NCBI GenBank assembly: GCA_030726725.1
Contig: JANRDC010000004.1
Location: 186,001-250,000, forward strand
DNA: 64,000 bases
Source: Flavobacteriaceae bacterium
Lineage (GTDB): Bacteria; Bacteroidota; Bacteroidia; Flavobacteriales; Flavobacteriaceae
Reading direction: 5' to 3'
Shown: piece by piece, positions 18,436 to 25,604 of the stretch
How the letters are laid out: each line of letters opens with the position of its first letter
Position numbering within the stretch: position 1 is the first letter of the stretch
Program-made: the position numbers and the translations under genes
The notes under the pieces: generated by a model
The model's input: the letters and a program-made list of their open reading frames with translations, nothing else
What the model was told of the DNA's origin: nothing
Databases searched by the model: none

Positions 18436-19030
18436 GTCCCTGTGGATGTTGTTTTTGGTGGTGGGTATGGCTTATGGCCAAACCCAAAAACCAACCTTGA
18501 AAAAAGCTTATTTTGCTGGGGGATGTTTTTGGTGTGTAGAAGCTGTTTTTGAATCTCTTAAGGGTGTAGAAGAGGCCGTTTCGGGATATGCTGGAGGAAA
18601 CTACAAAAATCCGACCTATGAATTAGTGGTTCAAGGAAGAACAGGACACGCTGAAGCGGTTGAAGTGATCTACAATCCCCAATTGATTTCTTTCAAAACA
18701 CTGGTCACTGCATTTTTTGAGTCTCATGACCCGACAACCCTCAATCAACAAGGACCGGACCGGGGTACACAATATCGCTCTATTGCCTTTTACAGCAACG
18801 CTCAAGAACGCAAAGACATTGAAACTGTGATGGCACAACAAGCGGGTAAGTACCGAAAACCTATAGTGACGGAAATTCAACCCATGACCTTGTTTTACGC
18901 AGCTGAAGGGTACCACCAAGATTTCGAAAAAAAGAACCCCAACAACCCCTATATCAGAGCCGTTTCCATTCCACGGTTTGAGGCATTTAAAGCAAAGAGA
19001 CCAGATTTGCTCAAAAAAGACAGCCACTGA
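18428..19030 (+). CDS. msrA: Exported peptide-methionine (S)-S-oxide reductase MsrA
   Basis: Repairs methionine-S-sulfoxide. The catalytic motif AGGCFWCVEAVF is intact, with EAVSGYAGG, GHAEAVEV and EGYHQDF typical of MsrA. An N-terminal hydrophobic segment ending AYGQ (about residues 1-18) indicates export, so it likely protects envelope proteins. The ATG at 18428 overlaps the amidohydrolase stop; the upstream in-frame start at 18332 would lie well inside that gene. The stop shares one base with the aldose epimerase start. Length is 200 residues. Confidence 0.92.
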   Translation: MNKSLWMLFLVVGMAYGQTQKPTLKKAYFAGGCFWCVEAVFESLKGVEEAVSGYAGGNYKNPTYELVVQGRTGHAEAVEVIYNPQLISFKTLVTAFFESHDPTTLNQQGPDRGTQYRSIAFYSNAQERKDIETVMAQQAGKYRKPIVTEIQPMTLFYAAEGYHQDFEKKNPNNPYIRAVSIPRFEAFKAKRPDLLKKDSH

Positions 19031-19932
19031 TGAACCTCCTCAAGGAACGATCCATCACACTTAATCACGGAGATTTATCGATAACCGTATTGAGTTTAGG
19101 TGCCATTTTACACCGATTTACCTACAAGGGTAAGGACATGGTGATCAGTCTTGAGGATGAATCTGCTTACCGAAACGACCCTTGGCATACCGGAGCTGTG
19201 ATCGGAAGACACGCGGGGAGAATCATGAAAAATGGCGCTTTAGCAGGTAAGCCTGTTTGCTTGGAAAGCGATGATTATTACCAATTACACGGCGGACCCT
19301 CAGGATTTTCCAAGAAGAATTGGACCTTTAGCGAGATGGGCAGTACCCCCTACCCCTATGTAACTTTATCCTTGTTGAGTCCAGATGGAGAGGGAGGTTA
19401 TCCCGGAAACCTCCAGGTTGCGGTTACCTATACCTTGAAGCAAAATGAACTTGAACTGAAATACCAGGCCTCAACTGACCAAACTACCTGGGTAAACTTG
19501 ACCAACCACACCTATTTTCAGTGGCATAACGCTCCTTTCCTCGACCAGCTGATCTTTGAAATTCCTGCCCATGGGGTGTTGGCTACTGACGATCAACTTT
19601 TGCCCACTGGATGGATCATACCCATGGATCAAAGCGAAATAAACTTCAATCAACCCCGCGCGTTGGGAACTCAAAGACTTGACCATGTTTATATGCTGCA
19701 AGACCCCAAATTATTGCCGCTTAAGGTACTTGACCCAGTGGCAGGTATCGGAATAGAAATGCACACAGACCAACCCAGTGTGGTTGTGTTTACCCCTGAA
19801 CCCAGAAATTCATTTTGTTTGGAAGCACAAATGCCTCCAAATGCCCCTAATTGTCCAAACTTTGGATCAATTGTACTACATCCATCATCCCCATACACCC
19901 AACAGACGAGTTACCGAGTCTTTGATTTATAG
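19030..19932 (+). CDS. Aldose 1-epimerase family protein (galactose mutarotase)
   Basis: Interconverts alpha and beta anomers of aldoses. Conserved pieces: IGRHAGRI near the N-terminus, YQLHGGPSGF (catalytic His), NLTNHTYFQ, LLPTGWIIPM, LDHVYML, and FCLEAQMPPNAPN (catalytic Glu). Length 300 is on the short side but normal for cytoplasmic members; there is no signal peptide, unlike the two genes before it. It starts on the last base of the msrA stop codon. The sugar substrate is not determined by the sequence. Confidence 0.88.
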   Translation: MNLLKERSITLNHGDLSITVLSLGAILHRFTYKGKDMVISLEDESAYRNDPWHTGAVIGRHAGRIMKNGALAGKPVCLESDDYYQLHGGPSGFSKKNWTFSEMGSTPYPYVTLSLLSPDGEGGYPGNLQVAVTYTLKQNELELKYQASTDQTTWVNLTNHTYFQWHNAPFLDQLIFEIPAHGVLATDDQLLPTGWIIPMDQSEINFNQPRALGTQRLDHVYMLQDPKLLPLKVLDPVAGIGIEMHTDQPSVVVFTPEPRNSFCLEAQMPPNAPNCPNFGSIVLHPSSPYTQQTSYRVFDL

Positions 19933-19974: not shown

Positions 19975-20931
19975 ATGCACCCGGTAACCTCAGAATTGCT
20001 TTCTATTGTTGTCCCTTTGTACAACGAACAAGACAATGTTGTCTTGCTCACCCAAAAAATACACGAGGCGCTTCAGGGCTACCAATACGAGATCATCTAC
20101 GTGGATGATTTTTCTACCGATGACACCAAGAAACGGATCGACGAAATGAAGGATTCGTCCGTGTTGTTGATTCATTTGAAAAAAAATTATGGGCAAAGTT
20201 TAGCGCTTGCAGCGGGGATTGATGTGGCTCAAGGCCGCTATATCATTACCATGGACGGTGACCTGCAGAACGACCCATCAGATATTCCAATGATGTTGGA
20301 ACAAGCCGTAAATCACGGTTTTGATTTAGTAACGGGTATCCGTCAAAAAAGGCAGGATAGCTGGCTAAAAACAATTCCTTCAAAAATTGCTAATTTCTTG
20401 GTGCGCAGGGTGACCAAACTGGATATCAAAGACAATGGTTGTGCGTTAAAGGTGTTTGATAAAGACATTGCTAAAGACCTGAATTTATACGGCGAAATGC
20501 ACCGATTTATCACGCTATTGGCTTTCTTGGAAGGGGCGCAAATCAAACAAGTTCCGGTAAAGCACCACGCCCGTCATGCTGGAACCTCAAAATACGGTCT
20601 TGAAAGAGTATTTAAGGTCATTGCAGACATGATGCTTTTGCTATTTATTCGCAAATACTTCCAAAGACCCATCCACCTATTTGGCATTATAGGCGTTCTG
20701 CTGATGATCTTGGGTGGTGTGGCTAATGTTTATTTATTGGCCCTGAAACTATCCGGTGAAGAAATCGGAGATCGACCATTACTCACTTTAGCCATGATGA
20801 TGATACTCGCTGGTATTCAGCTTTTTACCATCGGAATTGTCATGGAGCTACTGATTCGCACTTATTACGAATCTCAACAAAAAAGACCTTACCGCATTAA
20901 AAAGATCAGCAAAGGTGGTCAAGTACAATAA
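19975..20931 (+). CDS. Membrane-anchored glycosyltransferase family 2 (polyprenyl-phosphate sugar synthase-like)
   Basis: 318 residues. A GT-A catalytic domain (LLSIVVPLYNEQDNV, IIYVDDFSTDD, TMDGDLQNDPSDIP) resembles DPM1, ArnC and GtrB enzymes that charge undecaprenyl phosphate with a sugar. Two C-terminal membrane helices (about 235-300) match the GtrB/ArnC layout. The ATG at 19975 is preferred to a TTG at 19954 because the latter overlaps the predicted -7 element. It overlaps the flippase-like gene by 17 bases. The sugar donor cannot be told from sequence. Confidence 0.85.
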   Translation: MHPVTSELLSIVVPLYNEQDNVVLLTQKIHEALQGYQYEIIYVDDFSTDDTKKRIDEMKDSSVLLIHLKKNYGQSLALAAGIDVAQGRYIITMDGDLQNDPSDIPMMLEQAVNHGFDLVTGIRQKRQDSWLKTIPSKIANFLVRRVTKLDIKDNGCALKVFDKDIAKDLNLYGEMHRFITLLAFLEGAQIKQVPVKHHARHAGTSKYGLERVFKVIADMMLLLFIRKYFQRPIHLFGIIGVLLMILGGVANVYLLALKLSGEEIGDRPLLTLAMMMILAGIQLFTIGIVMELLIRTYYESQQKRPYRIKKISKGGQVQ

Positions 20932-21823
20932 AAACCTAGCCACTGTATTAAAAATCTTATTCAGCGGATTTTTGCTGTTTCTGCTTTTCACCAAAGTTCC
21001 GCTTAGGGATATATGGGTGTTGTGGGCAGCGTCTAATCCCCTATGGCTTGTGTGTGCCTTATTGCTTTTTGTCGTTTCAAAATGGATCTCCCTACTGAGA
21101 CTTCACCAACTGATGAATTATATAGGCCTAGGATGGGCATTGACAAAACAAGCAAAATTATACTTGATGGGTATGTTCTACAACCTCTTTTTGCCCGGGG
21201 GAATTGGTGGAGACGGATACAAAGCATACATCTATCAAAAAACATCTGAGGTCAGTTTGAAAAAAGGGGTGTCCGCCCTGTTATTGGACCGAATTTCAGG
21301 AGTTTGGGCTTTGGCATTGTGGGCCCTTGTTCTGGGGATTTTTGTGTCTGGAATGCCTTTTTCAGATCAACCTTTGTTGTATTTAATCGCAGGGATACTG
21401 GGGACTACTGCCTATGGTGTCTTGGTGTATACCGCTTTTAATAACACTTGGGGAAATTTCTGGCGCGGTAGTATACTATCCCTATTGGTCCAAGGGGCTC
21501 AATTGTTGTCGGCTCTATTTTTGCTTTGGTCTCTGGATGCAACACAAGATATCTCTGGATACTTGGTGGTGTTTTTAATCTCTTCTGTCGCTGCAGTTTT
21601 GCCACTTACCATCGGAGGTATGGGCAGTAGAGAAATTACTTTCTATTACGGATCCCAATGGTTGGGGTTGGATCAAACCATTTCTCTAGGCGTCAGTCTT
21701 CTCTTCTTTGGAATTACTGCCCTGGTGTCATTGACAGGAATTTACTTCCATATCCGAAAACCCTCATGGGAGATTAGCGATCCGCAGACAACCAGATCAA
21801 ATAGCGATAAGACAGCTGATTAG
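20915..21823 (+). CDS. Flippase-like polytopic protein (lysylphosphatidylglycerol synthase TM domain family)
   Basis: 302 residues with about eight membrane helices and the family motif NLFLPGGIGGDGYKAYIY (about 85-102), then LLLDRISG and IGGMGSREITF. This is the MprF-type flippase-domain family (UPF0104/AglD-like), often found beside polyprenyl-phosphate glycosyltransferases. The start is a GTG inside the preceding gene, consistent with coupling. Its likely role is moving the lipid-linked sugar across the membrane. The last 50 bases overlap the 3' end of the convergent GT39 gene. Confidence 0.8.
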   Translation: MVKYNKNLATVLKILFSGFLLFLLFTKVPLRDIWVLWAASNPLWLVCALLLFVVSKWISLLRLHQLMNYIGLGWALTKQAKLYLMGMFYNLFLPGGIGGDGYKAYIYQKTSEVSLKKGVSALLLDRISGVWALALWALVLGIFVSGMPFSDQPLLYLIAGILGTTAYGVLVYTAFNNTWGNFWRGSILSLLVQGAQLLSALFLLWSLDATQDISGYLVVFLISSVAAVLPLTIGGMGSREITFYYGSQWLGLDQTISLGVSLLFFGITALVSLTGIYFHIRKPSWEISDPQTTRSNSDKTAD

Positions 21824-23393
21824 TTCGGGTCTGGGGATTCAAAAAAGACCAATTTAACCGGGTAATCCTAAAATGGGGTGATTTTTCCACCAGGGTCCAA
21901 TTTCTGTTGGTGTCCTTGAGCAAAATATTGGGGTCTATCTCTGTGTACAGCCAACCCTGAGAAATGGTCGAAATCTGGGTGGAATCAATCAATACCAATG
22001 GTTGGTGGGTGTAAAAATCCAAAGACCAGGTGAATTGATCTGATAATTTATAAATAGGCGCTTCTTTTCCAGTAGCTCGGTCTTTATGCCAAGCTTTGGC
22101 CAAACTAACGCCCGATTGATAGGCCAATAGGTTGGGGTAAAAAAACAAATGCATCATCAGATAAAGGCCACCAAAAATGAGCGCGGTATAACGCCATATC
22201 ATTCCTGTGGAAGAGCGCCAGAGTCTGGGTAGGGCTACCACGGCGACCAAAGCCACCCAAACACCAAGTTCACTTCCTGTACCAAAAGCCCAAACCAATA
22301 CTCCACTGCAAATCAACACGGCAGTCAACAGTGTTTTCTGCGCGATGACCCAAGGTTTTTTTGAGGACAGCACCGACAGATAAGGCGCGGACAACACCGC
22401 CCAAATCGGGAGCGTACCATTGAGGTAATGAGGTAATTTAAACTGTGCAAAACTGATCAATACCATGATGGCAGTGACCCCGATAAAGGTCATGGACTCG
22501 GGAAAACTTCGGGCTGAACTTATTTGCCTCCAACGATCAACCCATGCGTAAACACCCACTAGGGTCCAGGGCAAAAACACCCATAGAAACGTGTGGAAAA
22601 AAAACAGATAATCAGGGCTATTACTCCCCATACCTGTTCCGCTCATCCGTTCAAAACTCTGTTCCCAAAGAATAAAAAAAACACCACTGCGCTGATCGAT
22701 TCCTCTGATGACCAACTCTGGATGAAGATCAAATTGAAGGTAATAAGCGTAAAGCACTGGACTAATTCCTAGGGCAAATACGCCCAAACCTAACAATGCG
22801 GGCCAACGAAATAACAAATACCACTTTCGGGTATGCCATAACTGGGCCAATACAGGTAAGCCTACCAGAACTACGCCAAGCTGGCCTTTGGCTGAAAATG
22901 CCATAGCTGTTGCTAAAGCTCCCCACACCAAATTTCTCCATCGTTCACGGACCAAGTAGTCCGAAAACTGCCACAATGCCCAAGCCACCGAGGCAGTCAG
23001 CACTGCATCAGTGCGCACGTCCATAGAAGCCAAAACCACACTGTATACAGATAAAAAAATAAGTGCTGCCCACCTGGCAATATGTTTGGGTTGCGCGAGT
23101 AACGACCATCGGTATACACTGTATCCCCCAAACCAAAGCGCGGCCAAGGAGGGTAATCTATAGGCCCAATCGGTGAGTCCAAACAACTTCATCGACCATG
23201 CAGATAACCAAAAATGCAGGTGAGGTTTATCCAAATAGGGCGCTGTTCCTTTGTACAAAGACCAAAAATCATGGGTCAAAATCATGCGTTGAGACATCAC
23301 AGCAAATTGGGCTGCATCGTTCTCCATCAAGGGAACCGATAGCCCAAAAGCCATAGCTAAGGCAAATAATACAAAGAGGATTCGATCTGTCAT
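21774..23393 (-). CDS. Glycosyltransferase family 39 (ArnT-like) membrane protein
   Basis: 539 residues, about 11-12 membrane helices, with an early acidic periplasmic loop (PLMENDAAQFAVMSQRM) and DKPHLHFWLSAWSMKLFG. Both match ArnT and protein O-mannosyltransferases, which take a sugar from a polyprenyl phosphate. ArnT moves aminoarabinose to lipid A; relatives glycosylate proteins. Here the acceptor is unknown. It overlaps the PAP2 gene by 4 bases and is convergent with the flippase-like gene, with which it shares 50 bases of antisense coding sequence. Confidence 0.82.
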   Translation of the reverse strand: MTDRILFVLFALAMAFGLSVPLMENDAAQFAVMSQRMILTHDFWSLYKGTAPYLDKPHLHFWLSAWSMKLFGLTDWAYRLPSLAALWFGGYSVYRWSLLAQPKHIARWAALIFLSVYSVVLASMDVRTDAVLTASVAWALWQFSDYLVRERWRNLVWGALATAMAFSAKGQLGVVLVGLPVLAQLWHTRKWYLLFRWPALLGLGVFALGISPVLYAYYLQFDLHPELVIRGIDQRSGVFFILWEQSFERMSGTGMGSNSPDYLFFFHTFLWVFLPWTLVGVYAWVDRWRQISSARSFPESMTFIGVTAIMVLISFAQFKLPHYLNGTLPIWAVLSAPYLSVLSSKKPWVIAQKTLLTAVLICSGVLVWAFGTGSELGVWVALVAVVALPRLWRSSTGMIWRYTALIFGGLYLMMHLFFYPNLLAYQSGVSLAKAWHKDRATGKEAPIYKLSDQFTWSLDFYTHQPLVLIDSTQISTISQGWLYTEIDPNILLKDTNRNWTLVEKSPHFRITRLNWSFLNPQTRTNQLSYRYLIWLSADR

Positions 23394-23971
23394 GAAGCGC
23401 TAGTGCTGAACCACTTCAGCGTTAACCTATATACCAACCATCCGTAAAACAAACCAACCAACATACCAAAAAGCACATCAGATGGGTAGTGTACACCGAT
23501 GACCACTCTAGAAAGCGATACCAATGCTGCCCAAAACAGCAAACTCACTCTTCCCATCAATACCCAATTATTCTTGGGCGCAAAAACACCCATGAGCAGA
23601 TAAAAAAAGAAAAATAACCCAAAACTATTGGAAGCATGTGCAGAAAAGAAACCGTAATTACCTCCGCAACTATCTTTGAGCAATTGAAGCGTGCCTTCCA
23701 GTTCCGGTTCATGACAAGGCCTCAAACGCCCCACGCCATACTTAAAAAACTGAGAGGTTTGGTCGCTGAGCAAAATTAAAAACCCAACCATGGCCATGAT
23801 CTGAGCTCTTTTTCTGGCATTAAACTGGATCCAGATCCAAAGGAGCAACACCGAGTAAATCGGAAAACTCCACGGCGTGTAGGAAACACCCACCCAAAAG
23901 CCATCCCAATGAGGGCTTCCCCATCCATTGATGACCCAAAGCAGTTGCTTGTCCCAATACCAAAGATCCAT
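23390..23971 (-). CDS. PAP2 family phosphatase
   Basis: 193 residues, about five helices, with the three phosphatase motifs: KYGVGRLRPCH, SAHASNSFG (the PSGH-like motif) and SRVVIGVHYPSDV. Such enzymes dephosphorylate undecaprenyl pyrophosphate, phosphatidylglycerol phosphate or lipid A. Sitting directly upstream of and overlapping the GT39 gene suggests a role in lipid A or lipid-carrier metabolism. The three motifs are complete, so it should be active. Confidence 0.88.
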   Translation of the reverse strand: MDLWYWDKQLLWVINGWGSPHWDGFWVGVSYTPWSFPIYSVLLLWIWIQFNARKRAQIMAMVGFLILLSDQTSQFFKYGVGRLRPCHEPELEGTLQLLKDSCGGNYGFFSAHASNSFGLFFFFYLLMGVFAPKNNWVLMGRVSLLFWAALVSLSRVVIGVHYPSDVLFGMLVGLFYGWLVYRLTLKWFSTSAS

Positions 23972-23974
23972 AGT

Positions 23975-24220
23975 CTAGTCCTCCTGCTCGTCTTCTTCGT
24001 CGTACCGGTCTATTTCGCGGTCGTAAAACGCGGTAGCCTCTTCAATCAATTTAAGGGTTTCTGTCTCAAGTTGCTCCTCATCTTCAGGGTCAAATTCCTC
24101 TAACCACTCTATTTCATCGTCGGCTAGATTCATAATAAATCGAGGATACTCTGTGTGTACCACATAAATAGCTTCTGGAAAATCTGTGTTGTCTCCTAAA
24201 ATAAACTTGGGTAGTTCCAT
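23975..24220 (-). CDS. Conserved small acidic hypothetical protein
   Basis: 81 residues beginning MELPKFILGDNTDFPEAIYV, followed by HTEYPRFIMNLADDEIEW and a very acidic C-terminal helix with many Asp and Glu. I recognise it as a conserved flavobacterial hypothetical family but know no function. It is 3 bases upstream of the PAP2 gene and 10 bases downstream of the MATE gene, so probably part of the same transcript. Confidence 0.75.
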   Translation of the reverse strand: MELPKFILGDNTDFPEAIYVVHTEYPRFIMNLADDEIEWLEEFDPEDEEQLETETLKLIEEATAFYDREIDRYDEEDEQED

Positions 24221-24230
24221 ATTTGATGTT

Positions 24231-25604
24231 TTAGTGATGATTGATGATTAGTTTTTTAGTTAAGTATTGAAATCTGAGGTATAACATTCCTGCAGATGCG
24301 GTTAGACCTGCCAAGAGCCCGATCCAAATACCTGTAGAGCCCAAATCGGTGCGCAACCCCAAATAAAAACAGAGCGGAAATCCGATGGCCCAGTAAGCAA
24401 TAGCCGTGATGATTGTGGGCACAACCACATCTTGTAAACCCCTAAGTGCACCCAAAACCACCACCTGCAACCCATCGGAAATTTGAAAAAATGCTGCGAC
24501 CAACAACAACTGAGCTGCAATGCTGATCACCTCAGCATTATCAACCGCATTCTTGAGATCCTCCACATTGAGATAAATAGTCGGAAAAAGGTGTCTACCC
24601 AACATGAATAGCGCCGCAAATAAAATTTCCAACAGCAAGGTCAACAGAAAAATGGATTGGGCGATTCGCCTCAGGTTGATATAATCCTTAAGCCCTTTTT
24701 GGTTGCCCACACGAATCATGGCTGCTACTCCTAGCCCCATACCCACCATAAAAGTCATGCTGGACAAATTCAGCGCGATTTGGTTGGCGGCTTGTGCATT
24801 CTTGCCCAATACCCCACTGAGCCAAATGGCAGCCGTGAATAGTGCGACTTCAAAAAACATTTGCATCGCAGAAGGGAAACCTAAAAAAACGATTTTTTTA
24901 AGCTTGCTCCATTCGATGATTCGCCAATTAAATTTTAAAACGTAATAGTTCATGGACTTATTCTGGGCCAATAGATACCACAACAAAGCAACCATCACCA
25001 CTCTGGAAACCAAGGTGCCCACTGCAGCGCCTACAATACCCCAAGCAGGAGCACCAAACTTCCCGAAAATAAAAAGATAGTTGAGCACTATGTTGACGAT
25101 GTTGCCAACAACGGTAGCGTACATTGGGTATTTGGTGCGCGACATTCCATCAGAGAATTGTTTAAACGCTTGAAAAATAACCAAGGGAACTAGCGAAAAA
25201 GCGACCAAATCCAAGTACGGCAAGGCCAGAGCCACCACCTCTTCGGGCTGTTCCATTTGGTACATCAATGGTTTTGCCCATAAGATCATACCGAATAAAC
25301 TGACGCCTAAAGCAGTGCATAAAATCAAACCGTGTTTTAAGGCGGATTTGCCTGAGGCGCTGTCCTGGGCTCCATCAGCCTCTGCTACCAACGGGGTAAT
25401 GGCCGTTGAAAATCCGATGCCCAAAGACATCGCGATAAAAACAAAACTATTGCCTAGAGAAACCGCTGCCAACTCCGCAGTTCCCAGTTGACCTACCATG
25501 ATATTATCGGCAAATGCGACAAATGTATGCCCCAACAATCCCAAAATGACGGGAAAAGAAAGCTTCAAATTATAGGCGAATTCTTTGGTGTAGTTGGTCA
25601 ACAA
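24231..25604 (-). CDS. MATE family efflux transporter
   Basis: 457 residues, twelve predicted helices, with the MATE signatures DNIMVGQLGTAELAAVSLGN in the first helices and a pseudo-repeat in the second half (RVGNQKGLKDY, SDGLQVVVLGALRGLQD). MATE proteins export cationic drugs or metabolites using Na+ or H+. The start must be a TTG (25604 or 25601): no ATG occurs before residue 36, and the protein needs LTNYTKEFAYNLKLSFP to align with the family. No regulator is adjacent. Confidence 0.92.
   Translation of the reverse strand: MLTNYTKEFAYNLKLSFPVILGLLGHTFVAFADNIMVGQLGTAELAAVSLGNSFVFIAMSLGIGFSTAITPLVAEADGAQDSASGKSALKHGLILCTALGVSLFGMILWAKPLMYQMEQPEEVVALALPYLDLVAFSLVPLVIFQAFKQFSDGMSRTKYPMYATVVGNIVNIVLNYLFIFGKFGAPAWGIVGAAVGTLVSRVVMVALLWYLLAQNKSMNYYVLKFNWRIIEWSKLKKIVFLGFPSAMQMFFEVALFTAAIWLSGVLGKNAQAANQIALNLSSMTFMVGMGLGVAAMIRVGNQKGLKDYINLRRIAQSIFLLTLLLEILFAALFMLGRHLFPTIYLNVEDLKNAVDNAEVISIAAQLLLVAAFFQISDGLQVVVLGALRGLQDVVVPTIITAIAYWAIGFPLCFYLGLRTDLGSTGIWIGLLAGLTASAGMLYLRFQYLTKKLIINHH

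Follow-up and report, generated by a model that had tools for sequence, protein, structure and literature searches.

Within the window, by which is meant the whole stretch of 64,000 nucleotides analysed from a marine Flavobacteriaceae bacterium, genes for two glycosyltransferases, a flippase-like membrane protein and a phosphatase lie side by side. The original prediction treated all four as a single lipid-linked sugar module. The arrangement raises the question of whether these genes are inherited together, and, if they are, which sugar they would handle and where they would place it.

Organization of the locus

Gene calls and Pfam matches confirm that the four genes occupy two convergent transcripts at the predicted positions. 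On the forward strand, GT2A (19975–20931; 318 amino acids from an ATG; PF00535, E=6e-30) is an ArnC/GtrB-like polyprenyl-phosphate sugar synthase, and FLIP (20915–21823; 302 amino acids from a GTG start; PF03706, E=4e-28, and TIGR00374) is a stand-alone MprF-type flippase-like membrane protein. On the reverse strand, the PAP2 phosphatase (23390–23971; 193 amino acids; PF01569, E=4e-24) is a core gene and a candidate lipid A 4'-phosphatase, and GTA (21774–23393; 539 amino acids; PF13231 or PMT_2, E=2e-14) is an ArnT-like GT-C transferase. All four Pfam matches exceed their gathering scores. GT2A and FLIP share 17 bp and PAP2 and GTA share 4 bp (ATGA), and where the two transcripts converge their 3' ends run 50 bp into each other; the 17-bp and 4-bp overlaps resemble those of translationally coupled genes. 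A GT2/flippase overlap of 17 or 20 bp is present in 67 of 76 other loci, and the ATGA overlap joining the PAP2 stop to the transferase start is found in 72 of 76.

In comparisons with the nearest relative, the genes of the window are under purifying constraint (dN/dS 0.02–0.09, with synonymous sites near saturation). The same adjacent, convergent layout is seen in relatives whose flippase and transferase are only 40–47% identical to those of the window. Because the layout recurs and the genes are constrained, the grouping is more than chance.

The group is bounded in the window by an aldose 1-epimerase-like gene (19030–19932, forward strand; PF01263) and, on the PAP2 side, by two core neighbours on the reverse strand: a gene for an acidic protein of 81 amino acids (23975–24220), conserved in the gene maps, and a MATE transporter gene (24231–25604; PF01554 and gene maps), which serves as a marker of the boundary. 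The acidic protein gave no matches in a Pfam search, and is kept beside MATE and PAP2 throughout the family.

Co-occurrence of the genes in the Flavobacteriaceae

Co-occurrence was examined in 100 Flavobacteriaceae genomes, one per genus and including that of the window. FLIP was matched in 12 and GTA in 14; both were present in 11 genomes, the flippase only in one, the transferase only in three and neither in 85 (Fisher p=3e-11). GT2A adjoins the flippase and transferase genes in the cassette-bearing genomes, and two genomes (G067 and G092) carry divergent versions located elsewhere. PAP2 behaves differently, with matches in 99 of the 100 genomes, including those that lack the other three genes. 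Since PAP2 is a core gene and is kept where the others are absent, what is inherited as a unit is a cassette of three genes (cassette A) located next to a resident phosphatase. PAP2 is an older core gene outside that unit, and its membership in a four-gene module, as originally predicted, can be set aside both on this distribution and on the empty sites in two genus relatives described below. Co-occurrence as such thus holds for GT2A, FLIP and GTA, and does not extend to PAP2.

Eighty loci, the best of at least 559 confirmed stretches, were named individually. The exact order PAP2>GTA><FLIP<GT2A is present in 69 of these best 80; the others include several cut by contig ends, some with extra small ORFs and one, L229, with two inserted genes. 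Within this set of the 80 best loci, genera in which cassette A is common are Maribacter, Robiginitalea, Eudoraea, Muricauda/Flagellimonas, Croceivirga and Cellulophaga, with the genomes of C. tyrosinoxydans (L151) and C. baltica (L156) both containing it. In the genus of the window, GTA is present in 8 of 12 genomes; an apparently split transferase in one relative is merely a run of N (an assembly gap or masking), and no break is shown. Relatives do not separate the three cassette genes, save in two cases. At L152 the genes are unlinked yet present in the same genome, with GT2A–FLIP at L241, and in G001 (L039) GT2A and GTA are directly adjacent and the cassette flippase is missing, with one other PF03706 gene in the genome. 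The latter amounts to a natural loss of the flippase.

Membranihabitans marinus (L197), a species outside the Flavobacteriaceae, also carries the three genes of the cassette; its GT2 is about 79% identical, and no PAP2 adjoins them. The occurrence of so similar a cassette there, with no PAP2 beside it, suggests acquisition by horizontal transfer. Elsewhere in the genome of the window there are two more PMT_2 proteins and one more PF03706 protein (G000:C26:2106-2588, G000:C6:51233-51694 and G000:C29:4952-5830).

Alternative cassettes at the same site

The usual neighbors of PAP2 are a MATE gene and a gene of 75–81 amino acids, with MeaB, DUF2911, SecA or an aldose epimerase on the opposite side. 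The slot between them was surveyed with a simple longest-ORF caller followed by BLAST and HMMER, with loci at contig ends counted as "other". Excluding the window, 95 PAP2 loci comprised nine with a full cassette A, one with cassette A lacking the flippase, 31 with a full and 11 with a partial cassette B, 12 with an empty slot and 31 others. Outside these 95 are L079 and L087 (PAP2 missed by the BLAST step), L134 (added later) and G081, which has no PAP2 match. In two genus relatives, PAP2 directly adjoins the epimerase, leaving an empty slot in an otherwise preserved gene order.

Cassette B combines a short GT2 with a membrane protein of the LAB_N family (PF07578) and a PMT_2 enzyme that is ArnT-like (E=2e-23 against the ArnT model); one further gene is often present. 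It resembles cassette A in its site and in its three-part logic, and differs in its LAB_N membrane protein (with weak SemiSWEET similarity), its shorter GT2, its different transferase group and its opposite gene direction relative to PAP2. Many further genera of the family have cassette B at this site, for instance at L043, L044, L045 and L047. In an 82-row MATE tree, the distribution of cassette A requires 4 changes, compared with 10.3 when labels are shuffled, and 11 of 11 cassette-A rows fall within one 15-row group (support 87, not starred).

A speculative reading, and one rather unlikely to hold in full, is that this MATE/PAP2–meaB slot acts as a coding site for lipid A, in which a core 4'-phosphatase would bare the 4' position and the resident cassette would pick the sugar, an empty slot leaving a bare hydroxyl. 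MprF-type and LAB_N proteins would then both be undecaprenyl-phosphate-sugar flippases. If so, cassette A would provide mannose in Cellulophaga and cassette B another sugar, two unrelated translocases would both flip undecaprenyl-phosphate-linked single sugars, and stand-alone PF03706 and LAB_N proteins would gain a function as flippases of lipid-linked single sugars. The two cassettes at one site also constitute a natural experiment, in which genomes carrying A, those carrying B and those with no cassette would be expected to differ at a single lipid A position.

Relationship of the encoded proteins to characterized families

The solved proteins nearest to GT2A are three ArnC sequences (about 1e-43; best 9hwj, E=5.5e-44, query residues 3–312), followed by GtrB (5eke, E=2e-33) and then DPM synthase (5mlz, E=1e-20). 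The alignment with 9hwj spans the full length of GT2A, including the C-terminal membrane part, and GT2A carries a DGDL metal motif; the protein is 73–81% identical across ten other cassette loci. It falls short of the cut-off of the ArnC equivalog for the Ara4FN donor (175 bits versus 529). The prediction of a GtrB/ArnC-like GT2 therefore stands, with ArnC closest and GtrB second among solved structures.

FLIP scores well over the curated cut-offs of PF03706 (99.2 versus 33.4) and TIGR00374 (71.1 versus 43.2), and a predicted model (pLDDT 85.5) has MprF as all six of its best PDB folds (TM-score 0.61–0.66), in keeping with the MprF-type flippase-like protein that was predicted. A FLIP profile gave no matches to PDB sequences, so that the link to MprF comes from the fold comparison. 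FLIP shares the membrane flippase fold of the lysyl-phosphatidylglycerol flippase/synthetase MprF and differs from it in missing the synthetase domain; its 302 residues compare with 841 positions in the model.

The only PDB sequence matched by GTA is the ArnT of Cupriavidus (5ezm; E=1.3e-13 as a single sequence and 4.2e-18 as a profile). The top folds for its predicted model (pLDDT 81) are likewise ArnT (5f15 and 5ezm, TM-score 0.71 and 0.68), with Alg9/Alg12, oligosaccharyltransferases and Pmt well behind; the best Pmt structure appears at rank 31 with a TM-score of 0.40, and the others score 0.26–0.30. An ArnT/PMT-like GT39 enzyme had been predicted; comparison by both profile and fold places ArnT nearest and upholds the first half of that description at the expense of the second, and a role as a protein mannosyltransferase is weakened by the same ranking. 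Residues D26, K56 and D125 of GTA align with ArnT positions and are invariant across 28 sequences. They align with D55, K85 and D158 of ArnT, which are its catalytic Asp, its loop Lys and a second Asp. The available text of PMC5377068 describes the role of the loop Lys in ArnT. The DExRY motif of ArnT is replaced by DAxQF in the GTA of the window, and GTA does not reach the NCBI ArnT equivalog cut-off (25.8 bits versus 567).

All three catalytic motifs are present in PAP2, so it may work like LpxF. Model matches are weak and conflict: the LpxF cut-off is missed (21.4 bits versus 400), solved LpxE gives a weak match (E=4e-4), and scores against the undecaprenyl-diphosphatase NCBIfam models are weak and no worse than that for LpxF. 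BacA was found in the genome of the window, and a search of 31 genomes detected it in 28.

Proposed function and alternatives

The conserved three-gene unit is consistent with the predicted sequence of charging, flipping and transfer, and somewhat better than even chances can be given to a scheme in which its products charge a membrane lipid with a sugar, bring the sugar to the outer side and place it on lipid A. The analysis itself establishes the protein families and folds, the conservation of the unit, the overlapping PAP2 and GTA reading frames and the existence of different cassettes at one site; the flipping step, the acceptor, the position, the sugar and the phosphatase substrate are those parts of the scheme that we infer. 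On the cytoplasmic side, GT2A would charge undecaprenyl phosphate with a sugar taken from a nucleotide sugar, and FLIP, an MprF-type domain minus the synthetase half, would carry the undecaprenyl-phosphate-sugar to the periplasmic side. GTA, as an ArnT-like GT-C enzyme, would hand the sugar on to lipid A, most probably at the 4' position, from which PAP2 would beforehand have removed the phosphate, freeing it for GTA. Lipid A is the best guess for the acceptor, and a slightly favored one.

To place a sugar at a dephosphorylated 4' position, a phosphatase has to act first and an ArnT-like transferase after it. In Cellulophaga lipid A, D-mannose at 4' replaces the phosphate, according to the accessible part of a 2024 study (PMC11065906), which fits PAP2 as a 4'-phosphatase and the cassette as the adder of mannose. 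Capnocytophaga canimorsus lipid A is likewise described as lacking the 4'-phosphate, with lpxF unassigned in the portion of the report available (PMC3342949). Several observations count against the scheme. A review (PMC4052302) gives the lipid A of Arenibacter certesii phosphate at both C1 and C4', which would speak against replacement at 4' should that species carry cassette A. The Membranihabitans cassette with no adjacent PAP2, the scores far below the ArnC, ArnT and LpxF equivalog cut-offs, the weak LpxE match, the presence of BacA and the patchy GDP-mannose supply described below also weigh against it.

Known systems offer partial parallels. Cassette A has in common with the ArnC/ArnT aminoarabinose pathway an ArnC-like polyprenyl-phosphate synthase and an ArnT-like GT-C transferase, and is unlike it in using an MprF-type protein in the flippase role, in its scores below the equivalog cut-offs and in its DAxQF motif. 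As far as the available descriptions go (PMC8036547, PMC7663294), the rhizobial LpxF/RgtE/RgtD system places galacturonic acid at the lipid A 4' position much as proposed here, with a phosphatase freeing 4', a GT2 charging the polyprenyl carrier and a PMT_2-type enzyme performing the transfer; it is found in a different phylum, and those descriptions mention no flippase neighbor.

The synthase, flippase and GT-C enzyme of the cassette also follow the logic of three-component Gtr-type systems (GtrA, GtrB and Gtr, as in a Citrobacter pentofuranose system), although in the accessible part of that account (PMC11127046) the acceptor is an O-polysaccharide and the flippases are GtrA-like or MATE, not PF03706. 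A periplasmic decoration of O-antigen, capsule or exopolysaccharide, as in Gtr seroconversion systems, with PAP2 an unrelated housekeeping enzyme, would agree with the independence of the core PAP2 from the cassette and with the absence of a clear donor clue from the genome in TIGR01479 and PF00483 searches. This is nonetheless fairly unlikely, given that the transferase is nearest to ArnT by sequence and fold, that its overlap with PAP2 is so widely kept, and that the chromosomal site is fixed, with no polysaccharide gene clusters among the mapped neighbors. Still less probable is a PMT-like protein O-glycosyltransferase acting on secreted proteins. The name of PF13231 invites this, as does Bacteroidota O-glycosylation, for which the available text of PMC12871550 identifies no core flippase or transferase; that modification is, however, widespread in the phylum by the same account, while the cassette is confined to one genus group, and Pmt structures rank far below ArnT.

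An alternative that touches only the phosphatase deserves more weight, although it too is not the favored one: PAP2 may recycle undecaprenyl pyrophosphate or phosphate, its operon with GTA being coincidental. Its undecaprenyl-diphosphatase scores, weak as they are, rival the one for LpxF, and it is present with or without the cassette; against this, the distribution of BacA leaves no obvious need for another enzyme of this kind, and the overlap with GTA is conserved. If attachment to lipid A is correct, the cassette supplies candidate genes for each step of sugar addition, such as that of 4' D-mannose in Cellulophaga. Sugars that replace lipid A phosphates alter the charge of the surface and are associated with weak endotoxin activity.

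Identity of the sugar

A simple hexose had been suggested, and this is possible. Mannose, suggested by the Cellulophaga lipid A, is a good guess for the sugar that the cassette would add in that genus; in C. pacifica, D-mannose is the only lipid A sugar besides glucosamine in the available part of PMC11065906. The words glycosyltransferase and ArnT are absent from that text, and an open-access phrase search for lipid A mannosylation gave nothing relevant, although the gene may still be in print.

The supply of GDP-mannose is less uniform. Of 25 cassette-A genomes tested, 17 have a GDP-mannose pyrophosphorylase (TIGR01479). The other eight, in which none was found convincingly, are that of the window, G064 and those of six relatives in the same genus as the window; one of the six has a marginal match (E=3e-4). 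Six of these eight genomes are 61–90% complete; those of the window and G064 are 98–99% complete. In the genome of the window there are just two PF00483 proteins, the first of which is adjoined by a dTDP-glucose dehydratase gene and is probably RmlA. A search for UDP-glucose supply with PF01704 gave no matches, and likewise none in 14 control genomes.

GT2A is 76.7–93.7% identical to that of the window in six of the seven other genomes lacking TIGR01479 (in the seventh, the contig ends before GT2A) and 73–82% identical in those that have it. In a 24-row alignment, 171 of 319 columns are invariant, and only 2 of 319 have no residue common to both groups. With GT2A conserved between genomes with and without TIGR01479, no change of donor is visible. 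Either the small genomes have another route to GDP-mannose, or the donor differs and the mannose of Cellulophaga has another source. As the usual GDP-mannose pyrophosphorylase is missing from the genome of the window, mannose is only one candidate there.

It is only a little short of an even chance that the sugar is not mannose and is instead one present in every cassette genome, such as that of a UDP-N-acetylhexosamine or UDP-hexose. ArnC and GtrB, to which GT2A is nearer than to DPM synthase, are users of UDP-sugars, and the ManC-type enzyme is missing from 8 of 25 genomes in which GT2A is nevertheless conserved. The C. pacifica composition (PMC11065906, accessible text) tells against a sugar other than mannose, as does the incompleteness of most of the lacking genomes, though two of them are nearly complete.

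Neighboring genes were also considered as clues. Those beside the Membranihabitans cassette seem unrelated to sugar supply, and the neighbor of the divergent locus L040 is an epimerase of unclear specificity. L259 encodes a PF00483 protein of 294 amino acids that matches no NCBIfam model at 1e-10 and is possibly an unusual sugar nucleotidyltransferase; weak PF00483 matches of similar size recur in three genus relatives.
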